Source of the DNA: a virus
Direction: 5' to 3' (one strand)
Virus record (IMG/VR): IMGVR_UViG_3300021092_001988
Location: 1-60,393 of that record
DNA length: 60,393 nucleotides
The notes below the pieces were generated by a model. That model had not been told where the DNA came from and ran no database searches. It was given only the letters and a program-made list of their open reading frames with translations. Shown piece by piece: positions 6,101 to 48,829 of the stretch (position 1 is its first letter; every line of letters starts with the position of its first letter). The translations under genes were made by a program, and so were the position numbers.

Positions 6101-7655
6101 TTTCTTTTATATCTGTGTAATCACCCGGTTTGTCTGTTTCGGGTTCACTACCATCATCAGGAGACAATTCTTTCATTAATATCTTAAATTGTTTAGATGA
6201 CATAAAGTGTGCGTTGTATTCCGGATTTTCATCACCAACACTGTAAACTGAATAGAAAGAGTCGTCGTTTGCTTGAGTACTTGTACTGTAAACATCTACA
6301 ACATATGTGTTTCCTTCCGTATCCACATAAACATCGGTATCGATGTGTGCATATTTTGGTTCATAAACCTTACCATCTTTTTCTACCCATGAATTTGTCG
6401 ACACGTTATACAATCCTGATTTACCGTTAATTTTACTTTCGTATAGTCTGATTTTTTTATTATCACCACTAACTCTCGCAATTTTAAATTCGTTAGCCAT
6501 CAAGAAATCAACGATAGTCCCAACTCCGTCACCAATACCTTTTTCTCTTAAAGTTCTGTCCAATAAATTAAATTGATTACCAACTTTTTTAATTTCACTG
6601 AGGAAATCAAAGTTACCGTATCTTTCTTTAACGTTGTACTGATTTATTTCGGGGTACACAATATACAAATTACGTAGTTCGTCATCCATTGACCTCCATG
6701 ATTCCGGTTTTGCTAATGTTCCACCGTTTTGGATATAAGCTCTTTTATATCCCTTTTCCATTCTTTTAAATTCGTATTGTCCACCAACTCTTTCGTTTAT
6801 TTGACCAACAACATCTCTTAGAGATAATTCCTCTTGTGAAAATGGTTTGGTTGTTATTATATTTCTTTCGCCTCTAAGTTGTGGATATATTTCTTCTATC
6901 TCTTCCCATGTTTTAACAAGGTCACCACCATTCATCATGTTTGTAATTCTGAAACCGGTATTAACTCCTGTGTCTTTTTGGATTGTACTTATAAAATATG
7001 GGTCATTTTCACTTTTATTTTCATCAATAACAAAATAAAATGTTCTTTCTCCTCGGTAATTACCCCACATATTTGATTTACCCATATCAGGTCTCCAAGT
7101 TACACACCATGGAGAAATATCTCTGTCAGATTGTTCAGGTCTACCTAATGCTTTTTTGTACATTGTGTGATACCAGTATCCATATCGTATGGACATTTGT
7201 TGGTCTCTTATCGCATAAACCCTAAGACCATCTCTTTCGAATACTAAATTATCGTTACCAAACCATAATCTTCTTGACGCTTCTATTCTCTCTGGTGACG
7301 CTTTTGTATCACTACCGGCAAAAACATCTCTCTCAACTGCTCTTTCTTCAGGTCTAAATTCGTTTAATAAAAACGATAATTGAGAATAAGAATATTTTTC
7401 AATCTGTCTTAAATTATTTGGGTCAAATTTTGGATATCCGTGTTCACCGTCGTATCTACTTAAAAATGTAAATACTTGTGGTCGGTCAGGCCTTAAACCT
7501 TCTTTTATTTTAGCAAAGTCATAAAAAAGCCTTTCACCTTCTTCGTCTGTAATATTTGGTCTTTCTGTTTTCCAAATATCCATTAGGGTGTTGAAGAGCT
7601 TCTTGTTTTTTACCTCCTCTAATAATGTGTCAAACAGTATTTCTGTGAATCTCAT
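6087..7655 (-). CDS. Large conserved hypothetical phage protein
   Basis: A 522-residue protein with no membrane segment. The N-terminus (MRFTEILFDTLLEEVKNKKL) is an amphipathic helix like those of other proteins in this phage. The central part has SPWCVTWRPDMGKSNMWG followed by RTFYFVIDE, a Cys/Trp-rich beta-strand pattern that I recall from large phage proteins of unknown function. The C-terminal third is beta-rich and acidic, ending in a Pro/Asp-rich tail. The minus strand upstream reads GGTATTTATG, a variant of the recurrent promoter motif. I cannot assign a function; a virion or ejected protein is possible. Confidence 0.65.
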   Translation of the reverse strand: MRFTEILFDTLLEEVKNKKLFNTLMDIWKTERPNITDEEGERLFYDFAKIKEGLRPDRPQVFTFLSRYDGEHGYPKFDPNNLRQIEKYSYSQLSFLLNEFRPEERAVERDVFAGSDTKASPERIEASRRLWFGNDNLVFERDGLRVYAIRDQQMSIRYGYWYHTMYKKALGRPEQSDRDISPWCVTWRPDMGKSNMWGNYRGERTFYFVIDENKSENDPYFISTIQKDTGVNTGFRITNMMNGGDLVKTWEEIEEIYPQLRGERNIITTKPFSQEELSLRDVVGQINERVGGQYEFKRMEKGYKRAYIQNGGTLAKPESWRSMDDELRNLYIVYPEINQYNVKERYGNFDFLSEIKKVGNQFNLLDRTLREKGIGDGVGTIVDFLMANEFKIARVSGDNKKIRLYESKINGKSGLYNVSTNSWVEKDGKVYEPKYAHIDTDVYVDTEGNTYVVDVYSTSTQANDDSFYSVYSVGDENPEYNAHFMSSKQFKILMKELSPDDGSEPETDKPGDYTDIKEKRGY

Positions 7656-13199: not shown

Positions 13200-13532
13200 A
13201 TGGAATTAAACAAAATCAATGAAAATGACGTGTTGAATATACTTAGGAGCGTTTTGTATGAGGAAGTTTCTAAAGTTAACAGGAACGATTACAACAGGGT
13301 TCAGTTCAAAATCGATGAGTTGGAATTCCAACTTAGTGAAACCATTAAGGAGTTAAGAAAATTACAAGATTTAACACCAGATGGATTAAAAACTTTAACA
13401 AACGGTAGATTCAAGACGATATCAGATAATTTATCTAATGCACATTCTACGTTGAAAGTTTTAAAAAACAAAGTTAAAACCCATAAAAAATATTCTAATC
13501 AAAGTCAAGCTGAAGAAAAGAGAGTAAAATAA
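13200..13532 (+). CDS. Hypothetical coiled-coil protein
   Basis: A 110-residue protein that is almost wholly helical, with heptad-like Leu/Ile spacing (KIDELEFQLSETIKELRKL). It may form a coiled coil. The C-terminus is basic. No family is recognised. It is convergent with the next gene; the stops are adjacent. Confidence 0.6.
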   Translation: MELNKINENDVLNILRSVLYEEVSKVNRNDYNRVQFKIDELEFQLSETIKELRKLQDLTPDGLKTLTNGRFKTISDNLSNAHSTLKVLKNKVKTHKKYSNQSQAEEKRVK

Positions 13533-13904
13533 TTATTCCTCATTATCTAACCCACTTCCAATATTCTTAACTATTTCCCTTCCTTTATCGGTCAAAAAAA
13601 ACCTTTCTTCATTATTTTCATCTTCAATGGAGTCTATGATTCCTTTTTTTTGTAGTTCATATAAAAGACTACCGGTGACTATTTCTTTTAGAAATTCTTC
13701 CATGTCGTCTTGATTGAAGATATTTTCTAATGAGTCTTCATCTAAGTCGCCATTAATAAATTTTGTTGTGAGTTTATCACAGAAGAACTCCAACGCGTAA
13801 GATTCGTCTTCAATCTCATACTCATTAAAAAAATCAGATTCCCTAAGTAAGAGAACAATTTCACTCGCCTTTTCCATGACGATTGGTTGGTATATGTTTT
13901 TCAT
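13533..13904 (-). CDS. Acidic protein with winged-helix-like C-terminus
   Basis: A 123-residue acidic protein. Residues about 78-115 (LLYELQKKGIIDSIEDENNE then FFLTDKGREIV) resemble the end of a winged helix-turn-helix domain: helix, wing, and the common LTDKGRE motif. The N-terminal part is helical and negatively charged. It may be a small regulator, but the recognition helix is not clear. Confidence 0.5.
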   Translation of the reverse strand: MKNIYQPIVMEKASEIVLLLRESDFFNEYEIEDESYALEFFCDKLTTKFINGDLDEDSLENIFNQDDMEEFLKEIVTGSLLYELQKKGIIDSIEDENNEERFFLTDKGREIVKNIGSGLDNEE

Positions 13905-36152: not shown

Positions 36153-36674
36153 ATGGGAAAATGTATTTGTTCAAGCTGTGGGATTGAATTTGAAAAATCA
36201 AATTCTGAATTAAATCGTAATAAAAAATTAAATAGACCTAATTTTTGTTCAAGAAATTGTGTTGGTATTAACAATACTAAAAATTTATTAAACGTTAAAA
36301 ATCGATACGATATACAAAGACACTCAAATAATAGAGGTGGGGAATATTCAAAATTCAAATATCATTTTAGAAATATTAAAAAAAGAAATCAAATTATTGA
36401 TTTAACTATTGAAGATTTGTCTAATCAATGGGTTTTACAAAATGGAATTTGTCCATTCAGTGGTATAAAATTAGAGTTGTCATCATATACCAAAATAAAA
36501 AAGAATCCAATATATTCTGCGTCTTTAGATAGGATAGATAATAAATTAGGTTATGTTAAAGGAAATGTTAGATGGGTTTCAAGGGCAATTAATTGGATGA
36601 AAAATGAAATGGATGATGCGTATATTCATGAATTAATTAGTATTTTAATTAAAAATAAAAGGGAACCCTTTTGA
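36153..36674 (+). CDS. HNH homing-endonuclease-like protein
   Basis: A 173-residue basic protein. The N-terminus has a zinc-binding CxxC pair (CICSSCGIEF) and a CSRNC pair. The C-terminal half has GICPFSGIKL, then ASLDRIDNKLGYVKGNVRWV, a signature of HNH/His-Me finger phage endonucleases (SLDRID....Y..GNV.WV). It is free-standing and ends only 15 bases from the 3' end of the intron-split tmRNA on the opposite strand. Such enzymes can promote spread of a nearby intron by cutting intron-less alleles; this link is inferred from position. Confidence 0.8.
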   Translation: MGKCICSSCGIEFEKSNSELNRNKKLNRPNFCSRNCVGINNTKNLLNVKNRYDIQRHSNNRGGEYSKFKYHFRNIKKRNQIIDLTIEDLSNQWVLQNGICPFSGIKLELSSYTKIKKNPIYSASLDRIDNKLGYVKGNVRWVSRAINWMKNEMDDAYIHELISILIKNKREPF

Positions 36675-36684
36675 GGTTCCCTTT
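36658..36684. terminator. Convergent terminator between HNH gene and tmRNA
   Basis: AAAGGGAACC pairs with GGTTCCCTTT. Read leftward it is followed by TTTTATTTTT, so it would end the tmRNA transcript; it also contains the stop of the HNH gene. Confidence 0.7.
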
Positions 36685-36707
36685 AATGTGGAGGTGGCGG
36701 GTTTCGA

Positions 36708-36900
36708 CAATTATTGGACTATATCATCATCTCAACGAGATGTCGGACGCTAATGTGGTATTACGATAGAAGCGTCTATCACCCACTAGTCTCTGCACCT
36801 TCCTGTTCCTATCAGGCTTGGCTCAGGATTATCTAAAAGACTTCCCCTGAGTTCATCCGATTTTCGACATATCTCACGATATGAAGGGGCTCGATTAAAA
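36708..36900 (-). mobile_element. Group I intron (IA-like) in the tmRNA T-loop
   Basis: On the minus strand the exon ends GCGGGT and the intron has an internal guide GAGCCCC, giving P1 as GGGU with GCCC and the required U-G pair at the splice site. Core elements occur in order: P (CTCAGGGG), Q (AATCCTGAGCCAAGCC), R (GTGCAGAGACTA) and S (GATATAGTCC). P3 pairs TCGGA with TCCGA; P7 pairs GACTA with TAGTC. Extra hairpins between R and P3' (GTGG/CCAC, GATAG/CTATC) look like P7.1/P7.2 of subgroup IA. The final base is G. It has no internal ORF. Confidence 0.85.
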
Positions 36901-37108
36901 ACCCGCGTCTTGCTCGCAATACAATAAATGGACTACACGTTTAGGACAGTATTTTCTAATACTCCGAAATTCACAATTCCCTTATTTTAAAGTGGTTCGG
37001 TTTACTGAGAACTAATCTTCCACTTTGTTTCTTTTAGGATAGAAACCACACCCTACAAGGACTTCTGTTCCAAGGTTATCTGTCCGTCGACCCGTTAGTT
37101 ACAACCAA

Positions 37109-37171
37109 TTAGGCTGCAACTTTAGAAGTCGCAAGAAGACCTGCTACTTCCATTTGGTTATAAACGTTGCC
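37109..37171 (-). other. tmRNA tag reading frame
   Basis: Within the tmRNA the frame from GGC at 37171 reads GNVYNQMEVA... and ends ...LATSKVAA followed by TAA at 37109-37111. The Ala-Ala end is what ClpXP-type proteases recognise on tagged proteins. The exact resume codon is a guess; the tag is longer than the usual 8-15 residues. Confidence 0.6.
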
Positions 37172-37282
37172 GTTTAAAATTTACCACCGTGGATTAAAGT
37201 CGTAGATGACATCCGACTACGTGCCCATTTACCATATCAACGCCAATCAATTCCATACACCCCCATAAGTCAAAGAACAAGA

Positions 37283-37291: not shown

Positions 37292-38011
37292 TTAATTTTC
37301 TTCGTCTATATAATTTATTGTAAATATACCATCATTTTCGATTAAATCAAAAACTAATGGTTTATTTATTGGTCGATACCTTTCTGTACAAGTTGATGCG
37401 TTAGCAAATACTGTATCGCCAATCATTGCAACACCATATGCACCATGTATGTGACCAAAAACATGTAAAAGTGGTTTTAAAACTTCAACACGCTCTCTTA
37501 AAAGTTCACATCCGACCTGTAAATTATTGGGTGTAAAATCTCTAATTCCATGTGGTGGACCATGTGTTATTAAGATATCGGTATTATTTGGGATTGAGTC
37601 CCATTTTTCTTTTAACACCTCACCGTTTCTTGGTAAATTAAATGCCCAATCAAAAAATTCAGGTTGCCATGGAGAACCATAAATTTTTATTGGTCTTGAG
37701 AATTCTGAACTAATAATTTCCAACTCACCATCTTCCAAATAAGTAACATTATTTTCTGTGAGAATTGATGGGTCTATGTAAAGATTTAACCATGTTGGTT
37801 TTCTTTGAAACGCAAAATCGTGGTTACCTGCAATGAAAATTTTATGGGTAAATCCTTGTATATTTTGAAACCAATTAATAAAATCACGAACATCATTTTG
37901 TCGTCCGACATTTGTGCAATCTCCTGAGTGTATCAAAATATCTCCCTGTGGTATGTTATACAACATACCATTGTGTAAAGAGTGGGTGTCAGAAATACAT
38001 ACTATTCTCAT
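37292..38011 (-). CDS. Calcineurin-like metallophosphoesterase
   Basis: A 239-residue protein with the full set of metal-binding motifs: ISDTHSLH at the start, ILIHSGDCTN (GD), FIAGNHDFAF (GNHD), ILITHGPPHG (TH), and LHVFGHIHGAYG (GHxH). These place it in the class of small metallophosphoesterases related to YfcE and Rv0805. The substrate may be a nucleotide, cyclic nucleotide or RNA end. It ends just before the tmRNA promoter region. Confidence 0.85.
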   Translation of the reverse strand: MRIVCISDTHSLHNGMLYNIPQGDILIHSGDCTNVGRQNDVRDFINWFQNIQGFTHKIFIAGNHDFAFQRKPTWLNLYIDPSILTENNVTYLEDGELEIISSEFSRPIKIYGSPWQPEFFDWAFNLPRNGEVLKEKWDSIPNNTDILITHGPPHGIRDFTPNNLQVGCELLRERVEVLKPLLHVFGHIHGAYGVAMIGDTVFANASTCTERYRPINKPLVFDLIENDGIFTINYIDEEN

Positions 38012-46810: not shown

Positions 46811-48829
46811 TTACACCCTTTTTTTAAAAATTTTTATTTCACCGTCTTTAAATTTTAAATTAATGGAATCATTCTCCTTAATTTCGCCTTTTAAGATTGA
46901 ATCACTTAAATAATCTTCACACATATTTTGGATGATTCTTTTAACTGGTCTTGCACCAAAATCTTCTTGAATATTAAGTTCCGATATTCTCTCCACAATT
47001 GTCTTATCAAAAGAAACTTTATAATTTTTTTCTTTTAATCTAACAGACAACTTATTTAATTCAATTTCAATAATCTTTTTAATTACATCTTTATCTAACG
47101 AATTAAAACTGATTATGTCGTCTACTCGATTCAAAAACTCAGGGTTAAAGTGTTGTTTTAATGATTTTTGAACGATTGATTTTTTAACCTCAAAGTTTTG
47201 TGATTCTGAAGATGATGAACTAAAACCAACACCCTTACCAAATTCAGATACTTTTTTTGCACCAATATTGGATGTCATGATTACTATAGTGTTTGTAAAG
47301 TTTACTTTTCTTCCAAACGAATCGGTTAAATGTCCTTCATCCAAAATTTGAAGTAAGATATTGAAAACGTCTTTGTGTGCTTTTTCAACCTCATCGAACA
47401 ATACCACAGAAAATGGATTATTTTTAATCTTCTCAGTAAGTTGGCCTCCTTCATCATAACCAACATAACCTGGAGGTGAACCAATTAATTTTGCCACGTT
47501 GTGTTTTTCCATGTATTCACTCATATCAACACGAATTACTTTTTCGGAGTCTCCGAAAAGTAGTTCAGCAATCGATTTTGCGAGATATGTTTTACCAACA
47601 CCAGTTGAACCTAAAAATATAAAAGAACCTATTGGTTTATTTGTATCTTTAATACCAACCCTATTTCTTCTAATTGATTTGGAAATTATTGAAATAGCCT
47701 CGTCTTGACCAATTACTTTAGATTTTAATTTTTCTTCTAAGTTCAAAAGATTTGCGGTCTCTGTATCATCAATCTTAGAGAGAGGTACACCTGTAATTTG
47801 TGAAATCATTTCATATACATCTGCAACCGTTACGGGTGTTTTATTGTCTTTTTGTTTGTCTAACCACTTCTTTTTTTCATCATTTAATTTACTCAGTAAT
47901 TTTCTTTCTTCATCTCTTAATTTAGCCGCTTGTTCATAGTTTTGACTTTTTACAACTTCTATCTTCCTATTTTTTAAATCATCAGATTCCTTTTTTAGTT
48001 TTTCAATAATCTCAGGAATTTTGGTATTTATTTTTTTTTCTGAACCCAATTCATCCATCACGTCAATTGCTTTATCGGGAAACTGACGGTCTGTGATAAA
48101 TCTTGATGACAAATTCACGATAGTTTCAAAAACCTCCGGTTCATAAAATACTTTGTGAAAATTTTGATATGAATCTTTTAAATTTTTTAAAATTTGAACT
48201 GTTTCTTCCTTACTTGGTTCTTTCAAAATTATTTTTTGAAATCTTCTAACTAATGCACCATCTTTCTCGATGTGTTTTTTAAATTCATCAAATGTTGTCG
48301 CCCCAATACATTGAATTTCTCCTCGAGCTAATGCGGGTTTCATAATATTAGCGGCGTCCATTGACCCGCTAGCGTTGCCAGCACCAACCATTGTGTGTAT
48401 TTCATCAATAAACACAATTACATTAGGTTCATTCTGTATTTCGTTTAGAACTGCTTTAATACGTTCTTCAAACTGACCTCTGTATTTTGTACCAGCCACC
48501 AAAGATGTTAAATCTAATGATACAACTCGTTTGTCTAAAAGATTTGATGGACAATCTCCTTTTACAATCATCTGAGCGAGTTTCTCAACTAAAGCCGATT
48601 TACCCACACCCGCGTCACCAATTATCACTACGTTGTTTTTCTTTTTTCTAGATAATATCTGTGCAATTCTTTTAACCTCACCATCTCTCCCAATTATTGG
48701 GTCAATTTTACCCTCTTCTACCATTTTGTTTAAATCCCTTGAAAAGTTATCAAGGATAGGGGTGGTTGAACCCTTTCTTGTTTTCTTTGGGTTGGTTGTG
48801 TTTCCTTCTTCGAAAAAATCTACTGACAT
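46811..48829 (-). CDS. ClpC/ClpA-like AAA+ unfoldase
   Basis: A 672-residue two-ring AAA+ protein. D1: VVIIGDAGVGKSALVEKL and FIDEIHTMVGAG; D2: FIFLGSTGVGKTYLAKSI and VVLFDEVEKAH. A UVR-like coiled segment (SQNYEQAAKLRDEERKL) lies between, as in ClpC. The N-terminal adaptor domain is missing. In D2, TSNIGAKKVSEFGKGVGF places VGF exactly where ClpC has its ClpP-docking VGF, so it may work with host ClpP. It lies near the RNA-repair cassette and may act in proteolysis of host or tagged proteins. Confidence 0.85.
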   Translation of the reverse strand: MSVDFFEEGNTTNPKKTRKGSTTPILDNFSRDLNKMVEEGKIDPIIGRDGEVKRIAQILSRKKKNNVVIIGDAGVGKSALVEKLAQMIVKGDCPSNLLDKRVVSLDLTSLVAGTKYRGQFEERIKAVLNEIQNEPNVIVFIDEIHTMVGAGNASGSMDAANIMKPALARGEIQCIGATTFDEFKKHIEKDGALVRRFQKIILKEPSKEETVQILKNLKDSYQNFHKVFYEPEVFETIVNLSSRFITDRQFPDKAIDVMDELGSEKKINTKIPEIIEKLKKESDDLKNRKIEVVKSQNYEQAAKLRDEERKLLSKLNDEKKKWLDKQKDNKTPVTVADVYEMISQITGVPLSKIDDTETANLLNLEEKLKSKVIGQDEAISIISKSIRRNRVGIKDTNKPIGSFIFLGSTGVGKTYLAKSIAELLFGDSEKVIRVDMSEYMEKHNVAKLIGSPPGYVGYDEGGQLTEKIKNNPFSVVLFDEVEKAHKDVFNILLQILDEGHLTDSFGRKVNFTNTIVIMTSNIGAKKVSEFGKGVGFSSSSSESQNFEVKKSIVQKSLKQHFNPEFLNRVDDIISFNSLDKDVIKKIIEIELNKLSVRLKEKNYKVSFDKTIVERISELNIQEDFGARPVKRIIQNMCEDYLSDSILKGEIKENDSINLKFKDGEIKIFKKRV

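Follow-up and report, generated by a model that had tools for sequence, protein, structure and literature searches.

A phage tmRNA gene split in its T-loop by a group I intron, beside a putative homing endonuclease

Can a phage tmRNA gene broken in its T-loop by an intron still yield a working ribosome-rescue RNA, and how did the intron come to be there? The question is raised by the minus strand of the window (the whole stretch of DNA analysed, 60,393 bases of an IMG/VR virus record), where positions 37264-36688 hold a tmRNA with matching acceptor ends, a D-region, a tag frame and a T-arm, interrupted by 193 nt. This split locus is real and, judging by its sequence, very probably functional. 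As an explanation of the whole, we consider it probable that the tmRNA is split by a mobile intron that homes with the help of an endonuclease directed at the T-arm.

The 5' exon (36901..37264, minus strand) holds the 5' strand of the acceptor, the D-region, the tag frame, the pseudoknot region, the 5' strand of the T-stem and nucleotide 1 of the T-loop, as placed by ARAGORN on the spliced sequence and by RF00023. The 3' exon (36688..36707, minus strand) supplies the remaining T-loop and the 3' strands of the T-stem and acceptor, as placed by ARAGORN and by the same joined T-arm in three relatives (L182, L183 and L184). Read from the sequence, the acceptor stem is GGGGGUG/CACCUCC and includes G3.U70, which we take to be a tmRNA (ssrA) feature. 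At its 3' end the gene reads CACCTCCAC and then AT, and thus lacks the full CCA. The tag reading frame, GNVYNQMEVAGLLATSKVAA-stop, lies at 37109..37171 (minus strand; 94-156 of the spliced tmRNA according to ARAGORN). The closest relatives of the 5' exon are 83-91% identical across about 200-240 nt, and the intronless relatives L182 and L189 encode tags that differ from that of the window by one residue. Just 3' of the tmRNA, a hairpin resembling an intrinsic terminator (36658..36684, minus strand; 11 pairs and a T-rich tail, a consensus match only) overlaps the 3' end of the endonuclease gene considered below.

ARAGORN called no tmRNA in the whole window or in the unspliced stretch, but after removal of 36708-36900 it called a tmRNA of 384 nt with the tag GNVYNQMEVAGLLATSKVAA. 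A preliminary description of this DNA had proposed model matches as a check, and the outcome was mixed: the group I intron model RF00028 matched well above threshold (36910-36698, minus strand; 68.8 bits, with gathering at 50 and E 2.2e-15 over the whole window), whereas RF00023 gave 35.4 bits against a gathering score of 47, a score that applies to the unspliced form. Five intronless relatives (L182, L184, L186, L190 and L211) all exceeded gathering, with 80-111 bits. Since ARAGORN and RF00023 at gathering both miss the tmRNA of the window, such split genes are probably undercounted.

The intron itself (36708..36900, minus strand, 193 nt) has P2-P8, with P3, P4 and P7 all present, as well as P7.1/P7.2 and a terminal G, its pairs having been counted in 15 relatives. 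In P1, the intron's GCCC binds GGGU in the 5' exon and leaves a U.G at the cut, and in P10 the intron UCGA, just 5' of the guide, pairs with UCGA of the 3' exon. The insertion point, after nucleotide 1 of the T-loop, corresponds to "position 2" in the numbering of PMC11915505, one of the four subsites published there. The preliminary description had seen here a phage tmRNA split in its T-loop by a group I intron, with an acceptor stem, D-region, tag frame, U-G at the 5' site, P3, P4, P7 and terminal G, and every one of these elements could be read in the sequence. Its further claim, that splicing would restore GCGGGT-TCGAAA-CCCGC, agrees with L182, L183 and L184, which have no intron and carry GACGCGGGTTCGAAACCCGCCACCTCCAC, the exact predicted joined T-arm, as DNA. 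The phage would transcribe a tmRNA precursor with a small group I ribozyme intron interrupting its T-loop; pairing of the exon GGGU with the guide would set the 5' cut, the intron would leave with its terminal G, and GCGGGT would be joined to TCGAAA, rebuilding the T-arm that the tRNA-like tmRNA needs.

Scans of a virus collection gave 19 distinct intron-bearing T-arm stretches, 15 of them at position 2 and three at position 3; the remaining one (L276) was left out of the counts, its first half being of the position-2 type and its second half, near the contig end, of the position-3 type, probably a chimeric assembly. Three more (L275, L279 and L280), truncated by contig ends, were also left out. 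As far as the contigs show, the 33 stretches of one scan lie in tmRNA genes. Position-3 introns have GGGTT with a GGACCC guide and a 3' exon that begins with CGA. All 15 position-2 sequences keep the U.G at the 5' splice site and the terminal G. The P10 guide follows the exon in part at nucleotide 6 of the T-loop, with G in the guide where the exon has C (3/3) and A where it has T (4/4), while the pair is absent in the eight sequences with A or G there. Across the 15 sequences, 97.7% of 699 cells of the intron helices are paired and 16 of 47 pairs have two-sided changes; none of 500 shuffles was as high on paired share, two-sided counts or covariation score, and the number of pair types was ordinary (219/500 as high). 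P3 and P7 are invariant and, having no variation in them, speak neither for nor against.

In the T-stem of 13 distinct joined arms all 65 cells are paired and two pairs covary (11 two-sided cells), with 0/500 shuffles as high for paired share, two-sided cells or covariation; the number of covarying pairs (338/500) and of pair types (387/500) was no higher than in shuffles. Because some 200 nt of the gene separate the two T-stem strands, this is evidence of selection on the spliced product. Splicing of the intron from the tmRNA precursor of the window is thus very probable, given that the joined T-arm exists in intronless relatives and that the T-stem covaries across the intron.

Convergent with the tmRNA is a free-standing HNH/endonuclease VII-like gene (36153..36674, plus strand; 173 aa), 14 nt from 36689 and 13 nt from 36688. 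It is matched by PHROG profiles for endonuclease (phrog_3322, 6.5e-22), endonuclease VII (phrog_1035, 7.8e-13) and HNH; it had no Pfam match and no convincing solved relative by sequence, and its AlphaFold model is poor (pLDDT 52.5). By eye, the alignment has the motifs CxxC, CSRxC and SASLDRID...GYxxGN. The last stands in place of the central DHDH motif, which in the DHHRN family of F-CphI lies between zinc-binding cysteines and precedes R and N, and we therefore rejected membership in that family. The intron contains no endonuclease gene and a free-standing one adjoins it, which is the layout of a collaborative homing pair, and we propose that the gene encodes a homing endonuclease.

A homologue of this endonuclease lies convergently behind the tmRNA, at 12-28 nt, in 12 of 19 intron-bearing rows of our comparison against 4 of 21 intronless ones (L182, with a flank of only 46 nt, was left out), giving a Fisher p of 0.009 with relatedness ignored. 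A tree-aware test using pairs on starred branches was not significant (5 independent pairs, of which 2.8 changed in the same direction, 0.5 in the opposite one and 1.7 showed no difference; median p 0.5), five pairs being too few to reach significance. Seven of the 19 intron rows have no HNH gene. In L134 a LAGLIDADG gene (13434-13838) takes its place behind the tmRNA, and GIY-YIG-type genes are found there in L190 (5231-5869) and L192 (3543-4193), so that the 3' flank of the tmRNA looks like an endonuclease hot spot. Homologues of 42-51% identity lie inside the tmRNA intron itself in L468 and L473 (position 3) and in L476 (position 2), antisense and, by our reading, after P9. Another homologue, in L474 (near 100-408), is close to a further tmRNA-like sequence whose T-arm reads GAGGG-AGTCGGAG-CCCTC by eye.

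The four intronless rows with the endonuclease have unusual T-arms, which suggested a test of the endonuclease against T-arm sequence. Among the best 80 loci of a profile search, 32 were classed at 44% identity or more: 14 have an intron, 16 a rewritten T-arm and two the canonical GGGTTCGA (L265 and L464, whose introns were already known, are not among the reclassed loci). The 16 rewritten-arm contigs comprise 13 distinct arms, each with five pairs. In L465 and L466 a 44%-identical endonuclease stands beside an uninterrupted GGGTTCGA, one arm being shared by both. Among intronless contigs without the endonuclease, 20/25 have canonical arms; the other five (L195, L196, L201, L202 and L204), together with L560, are non-canonical without an HNH gene.

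Since these two sets differ in breadth, we drew a further sample by scanning for a motif 5' of the T-arm, blind to both features, and used all 72 stretches found, leaving out six with less than 400 nt of flank and no endonuclease match. The script left 17 unresolved, of which 16 were not tmRNA-like by eye and one (L560) had a rewritten arm; it also misread L527 and L537, which are canonical. The endonuclease was beside none of 32 canonical uninterrupted GGGTTCRA arms, against 7/8 rewritten arms and 9/10 introns (16/18 in total, with four of the ten intron contigs belonging to the window's own phage). Counting distinct arms or introns, the figures are 0/12 canonical (L527 would make 13) against 11/13 intron-bearing or rewritten. 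The p values, 3e-11 by contigs and 2e-5 by distinct arms or introns, overstate the evidence because the contigs are related.

Rfam matched 8 of eleven rewritten-arm loci to RF00023 above gathering; the exceptions, L442, L443 and L461 (T-loops GGCAGTA, GGCAGAG and GGCGGTA), were not above gathering and have tmRNA bodies and acceptor ends that look intact by eye. ARAGORN, run on 32 of the 78 endonuclease-search loci, called 1/15 rewritten-arm tmRNAs and missed some canonical ones too (e.g., L465 and L466). Loss of TTCRANN in favour of GGCAGTA, GGCAGAG, GGCGGTA or GGCGGAA was seen in L442 (3510-3990), L443, L461, L526 and L538 (minus strand), all with fully paired stems.

The exclusion between endonuclease and canonical arm, as it appears by comparison of these contigs, makes a clear and cheap prediction of the cleavage target. 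The HNH-type enzyme would most likely cut the uninterrupted T-arm GGGTTCGA in the tmRNA genes of other phages, and repair would copy the intron and endonuclease into the cut genes; a genome holding the endonuclease would then need protection, either by an intron or by a rewritten T-arm. The alternative that fares best keeps the tmRNA and intron as described and has the endonuclease cut elsewhere, for example in the flank behind the tmRNA, its link with the T-arm reflecting the shared ancestry of a few lineages. The several kinds of endonuclease hosted by that flank (GIY-YIG and LAGLIDADG), the non-significant tree-aware test of HNH gene and intron, and the presence of non-canonical arms in L199 (HNH) as well as in its sister row L201 (no HNH) would fit such a case. 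We regard it as unlikely, given the 13 distinct, five-paired rewritten arms in 16 endonuclease contigs, the 0/32 canonical arms of the blind sample and the homologues located within the intron in three relatives.

A 41-row tree of tmRNA exons shows at least seven changes in intron presence, and it disagrees with the tree of the introns, although the deep branches of the latter are weak. The tmRNA of L286, split at position 2, has as its sister that of L278, split at position 3; the tmRNA of L264 groups with L125 and L283 and its intron with L178 and L188, while the tmRNA of L070 groups with L178 and the L286 group and its intron with those of L081 and L125. The tmRNAs of L188 and L190 resemble each other closely, the former having the intron and the HNH endonuclease and the latter neither. 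This pattern bears on the idea, put forward in the preliminary description, that rescue is tied to the state of splicing during infection, the intron acting as a regulatory switch whose slowed or triggered splicing would time the appearance of the tmRNA. All that speaks for the idea is that the T-arm forms after intron removal. With close relatives intronless at the same locus and at least seven changes on the tmRNA tree, it found no support and is in our view quite improbable; the comparative pattern points instead to a mobile intron homing with the neighbouring endonuclease.

The longest database matches to the intron of the window are 72-77% identical over 114-149 nt, among them a stretch downstream of psbA in S-SRM01 (76% over 148 nt). 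In each of seven phage records the best match to our intron model R1 scored 93-137 bits, and by this model the introns of S-SRM01, Vibrio phages R16F and VnaP, and Klebsiella phage Muenster, near psbA, terminase and tRNA genes, are of the same broad type; they differ from that of the window in their host genes and splice sites. The phage RNA gene has apparently been invaded repeatedly, at two sites, by a phage intron type found near psbA, terminase and tRNA genes. The Muenster intron (L056, MT708547.1, about 1380-1700; RF00028 104 bits) is 231 nt long, ends in G and, by eye, splits a CAT-anticodon tRNA in the anticodon loop; it is unannotated in the record, and ARAGORN made no call on the joined tRNA exons.

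We also considered descent from the lineage of bacterial tmRNA introns at the same site. A genome-collection scan for position-2 introns, read by script and eye, gave one intron-split tmRNA among the 119 matches listed, in a Chloroflexota (Thermoflexales) sequence (L383, about 6506-7544) with an intron of about 660 nt. It did not match R1 and the candidate was rejected, on thin grounds, this being a single example whose intron may differ too much for the model to match. A Bacteroidia tmRNA (L418, 1501-2068) has, by our reading, a position-3 intron of the same broad type (95.5 bits), which the tree puts on a long branch and does not group as sister with the position-3 introns of phages, the deep branches being weak. 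Matches to the intron type occur in 13 of 395 Bacteroidia genomes, the others lying beside a tRNA-like sequence as far as we looked.

A working phage tmRNA would be charged, tag nascent proteins and rescue ribosomes, and trans-translation has a second part, SmpB. It is encoded in 8 of 34 records searched (2/12 plus 6/22, one of the latter being partial at the end of its contig), which gives some of these phages both parts, and in the three cases worked out it lies about 6 kb from the tmRNA. A homologue is present in 62 phage records, including the Prevotella Lak phages. The tmRNA might instead be dead or a decoy, its intron no longer splicing; full CCA is not encoded, and the three records of the window's phage, possibly fragments, yielded no SmpB. 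We think this very doubtful in view of the compensatory changes that keep the T-stem paired across the intron (13 distinct arms), the retention of tag, acceptor and ribozyme helices, and the SmpB genes of relatives. SmpB genes on tmRNA-bearing phage contigs were located in L410 (1492-1932) and in L411-L417. The window has a ClpA/ClpC-like double AAA+ ATPase gene (46811-48829; PF07724, PF17871 and ClpB_D2-small), a possible partner in degrading tagged proteins. GOLLD RNA (RF02032) is encoded a few kb from the phage tmRNA in L186 (2846-3251, 321.5 bits) and L211 (1633-2041, 314.4 bits), and Rfam found none over the gathering score in the window.

That a virus contig acquired a bacterial tmRNA by misassembly is hardly credible, even though neither the window nor its nearest relatives are named isolates (all are IMG/VR contigs), since 801 bp of the stretch are identical in virus-collection contigs of 45,948, 53,597 and 133,999 bases and 700 bp in one of 170,860 bases, the window carries T4-like terminase and portal genes, the metallophosphoesterase gene upstream (37292..38011, minus strand; PF00149, 1.6e-14; phrog_1649) adjoins the tmRNA in many contigs, and the 5' exon had a single match, of 29 nt, among 395 Bacteroidia genomes. 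That gene was the neighbour used to find relatives (best 80 of 284). The nearest terminase and portal proteins are those of Microcystis and Flavobacterium phages (28-44% identity), and the 5' exon had no match at E 1 among 50,697 phage records.

Intron-form tmRNA genes are known in bacteria (Williams 2002, cited in PMC1995217), as the preliminary description had noted, and the available part of a recent survey (Nawrocki, Petrov and Williams 2025, PMC11915505) gives 883 sequences, all split in the T-loop, 36 of them with an endonuclease gene. These resemble the gene of the window in having a T-loop group I intron, a U.G at the 5' site, a terminal G and a T-arm rebuilt by splicing. The survey, in that part, places position 2 in Anaerolineae and one Myxococcota and position 3 in Bacteroidia, whereas here position-2 and position-3 introns of one type occur in phage genomes; it counts 79 phage tmRNAs and names no phage intron form. 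Phage-encoded tmRNA and SmpB have been described (PMC9004378 and PMC7162821), and like the window these are phage genomes with their own trans-translation RNA, some relatives of the window having SmpB as well. The word "intron" is absent from the main texts of both papers as available, and PMC7162821 assigned tmRNAs by ARAGORN, which misses the split gene of the window. According to a 2014 review, every phage intron seen until then was in a protein-coding gene (PMC3984707, in the part available).

Collaborative homing was defined by F-CphI and the psbA intron of cyanophage S-PM2, where, according to the available text of PMC6083498, a group I intron likewise stands beside a free-standing endonuclease whose cutting is blocked by the intron. 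The window would differ in that its target is an RNA gene, in an endonuclease with SASLDRID...GYxxGN and not DHDH (by eye), and in the second escape route, rewriting of the T-arm, that is seen in the phage tmRNA family. The literature on tmRNA introns, phage tmRNAs and homing endonucleases, searched mostly outside subscription journals, gave no description of an intron-split phage tmRNA or of a tmRNA-directed phage endonuclease. As far as searched, this is the first phage family in which a split RNA gene of a known kind is linked with a trans-acting endonuclease and with rewriting of the T-arm.

For the phages, we lean somewhat towards the view that a selfish intron-endonuclease pair drives the evolution of their ribosome-rescue RNA: the conserved GGGTTCGA would be targeted, and survivors would either accept an intron, in one or the other of two adjacent positions, or carry a rewritten T-arm in which compensatory changes keep the pairs, some losing TTCRA. 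The rewritten T-arms are natural variants with which to ask which T-loop contacts a tmRNA needs, and, should this view be true, the tmRNAs with GGCAGTA, GGCAGAG and GGCGGTA would serve as natural experiments on how little of the T-loop suffices for trans-translation.
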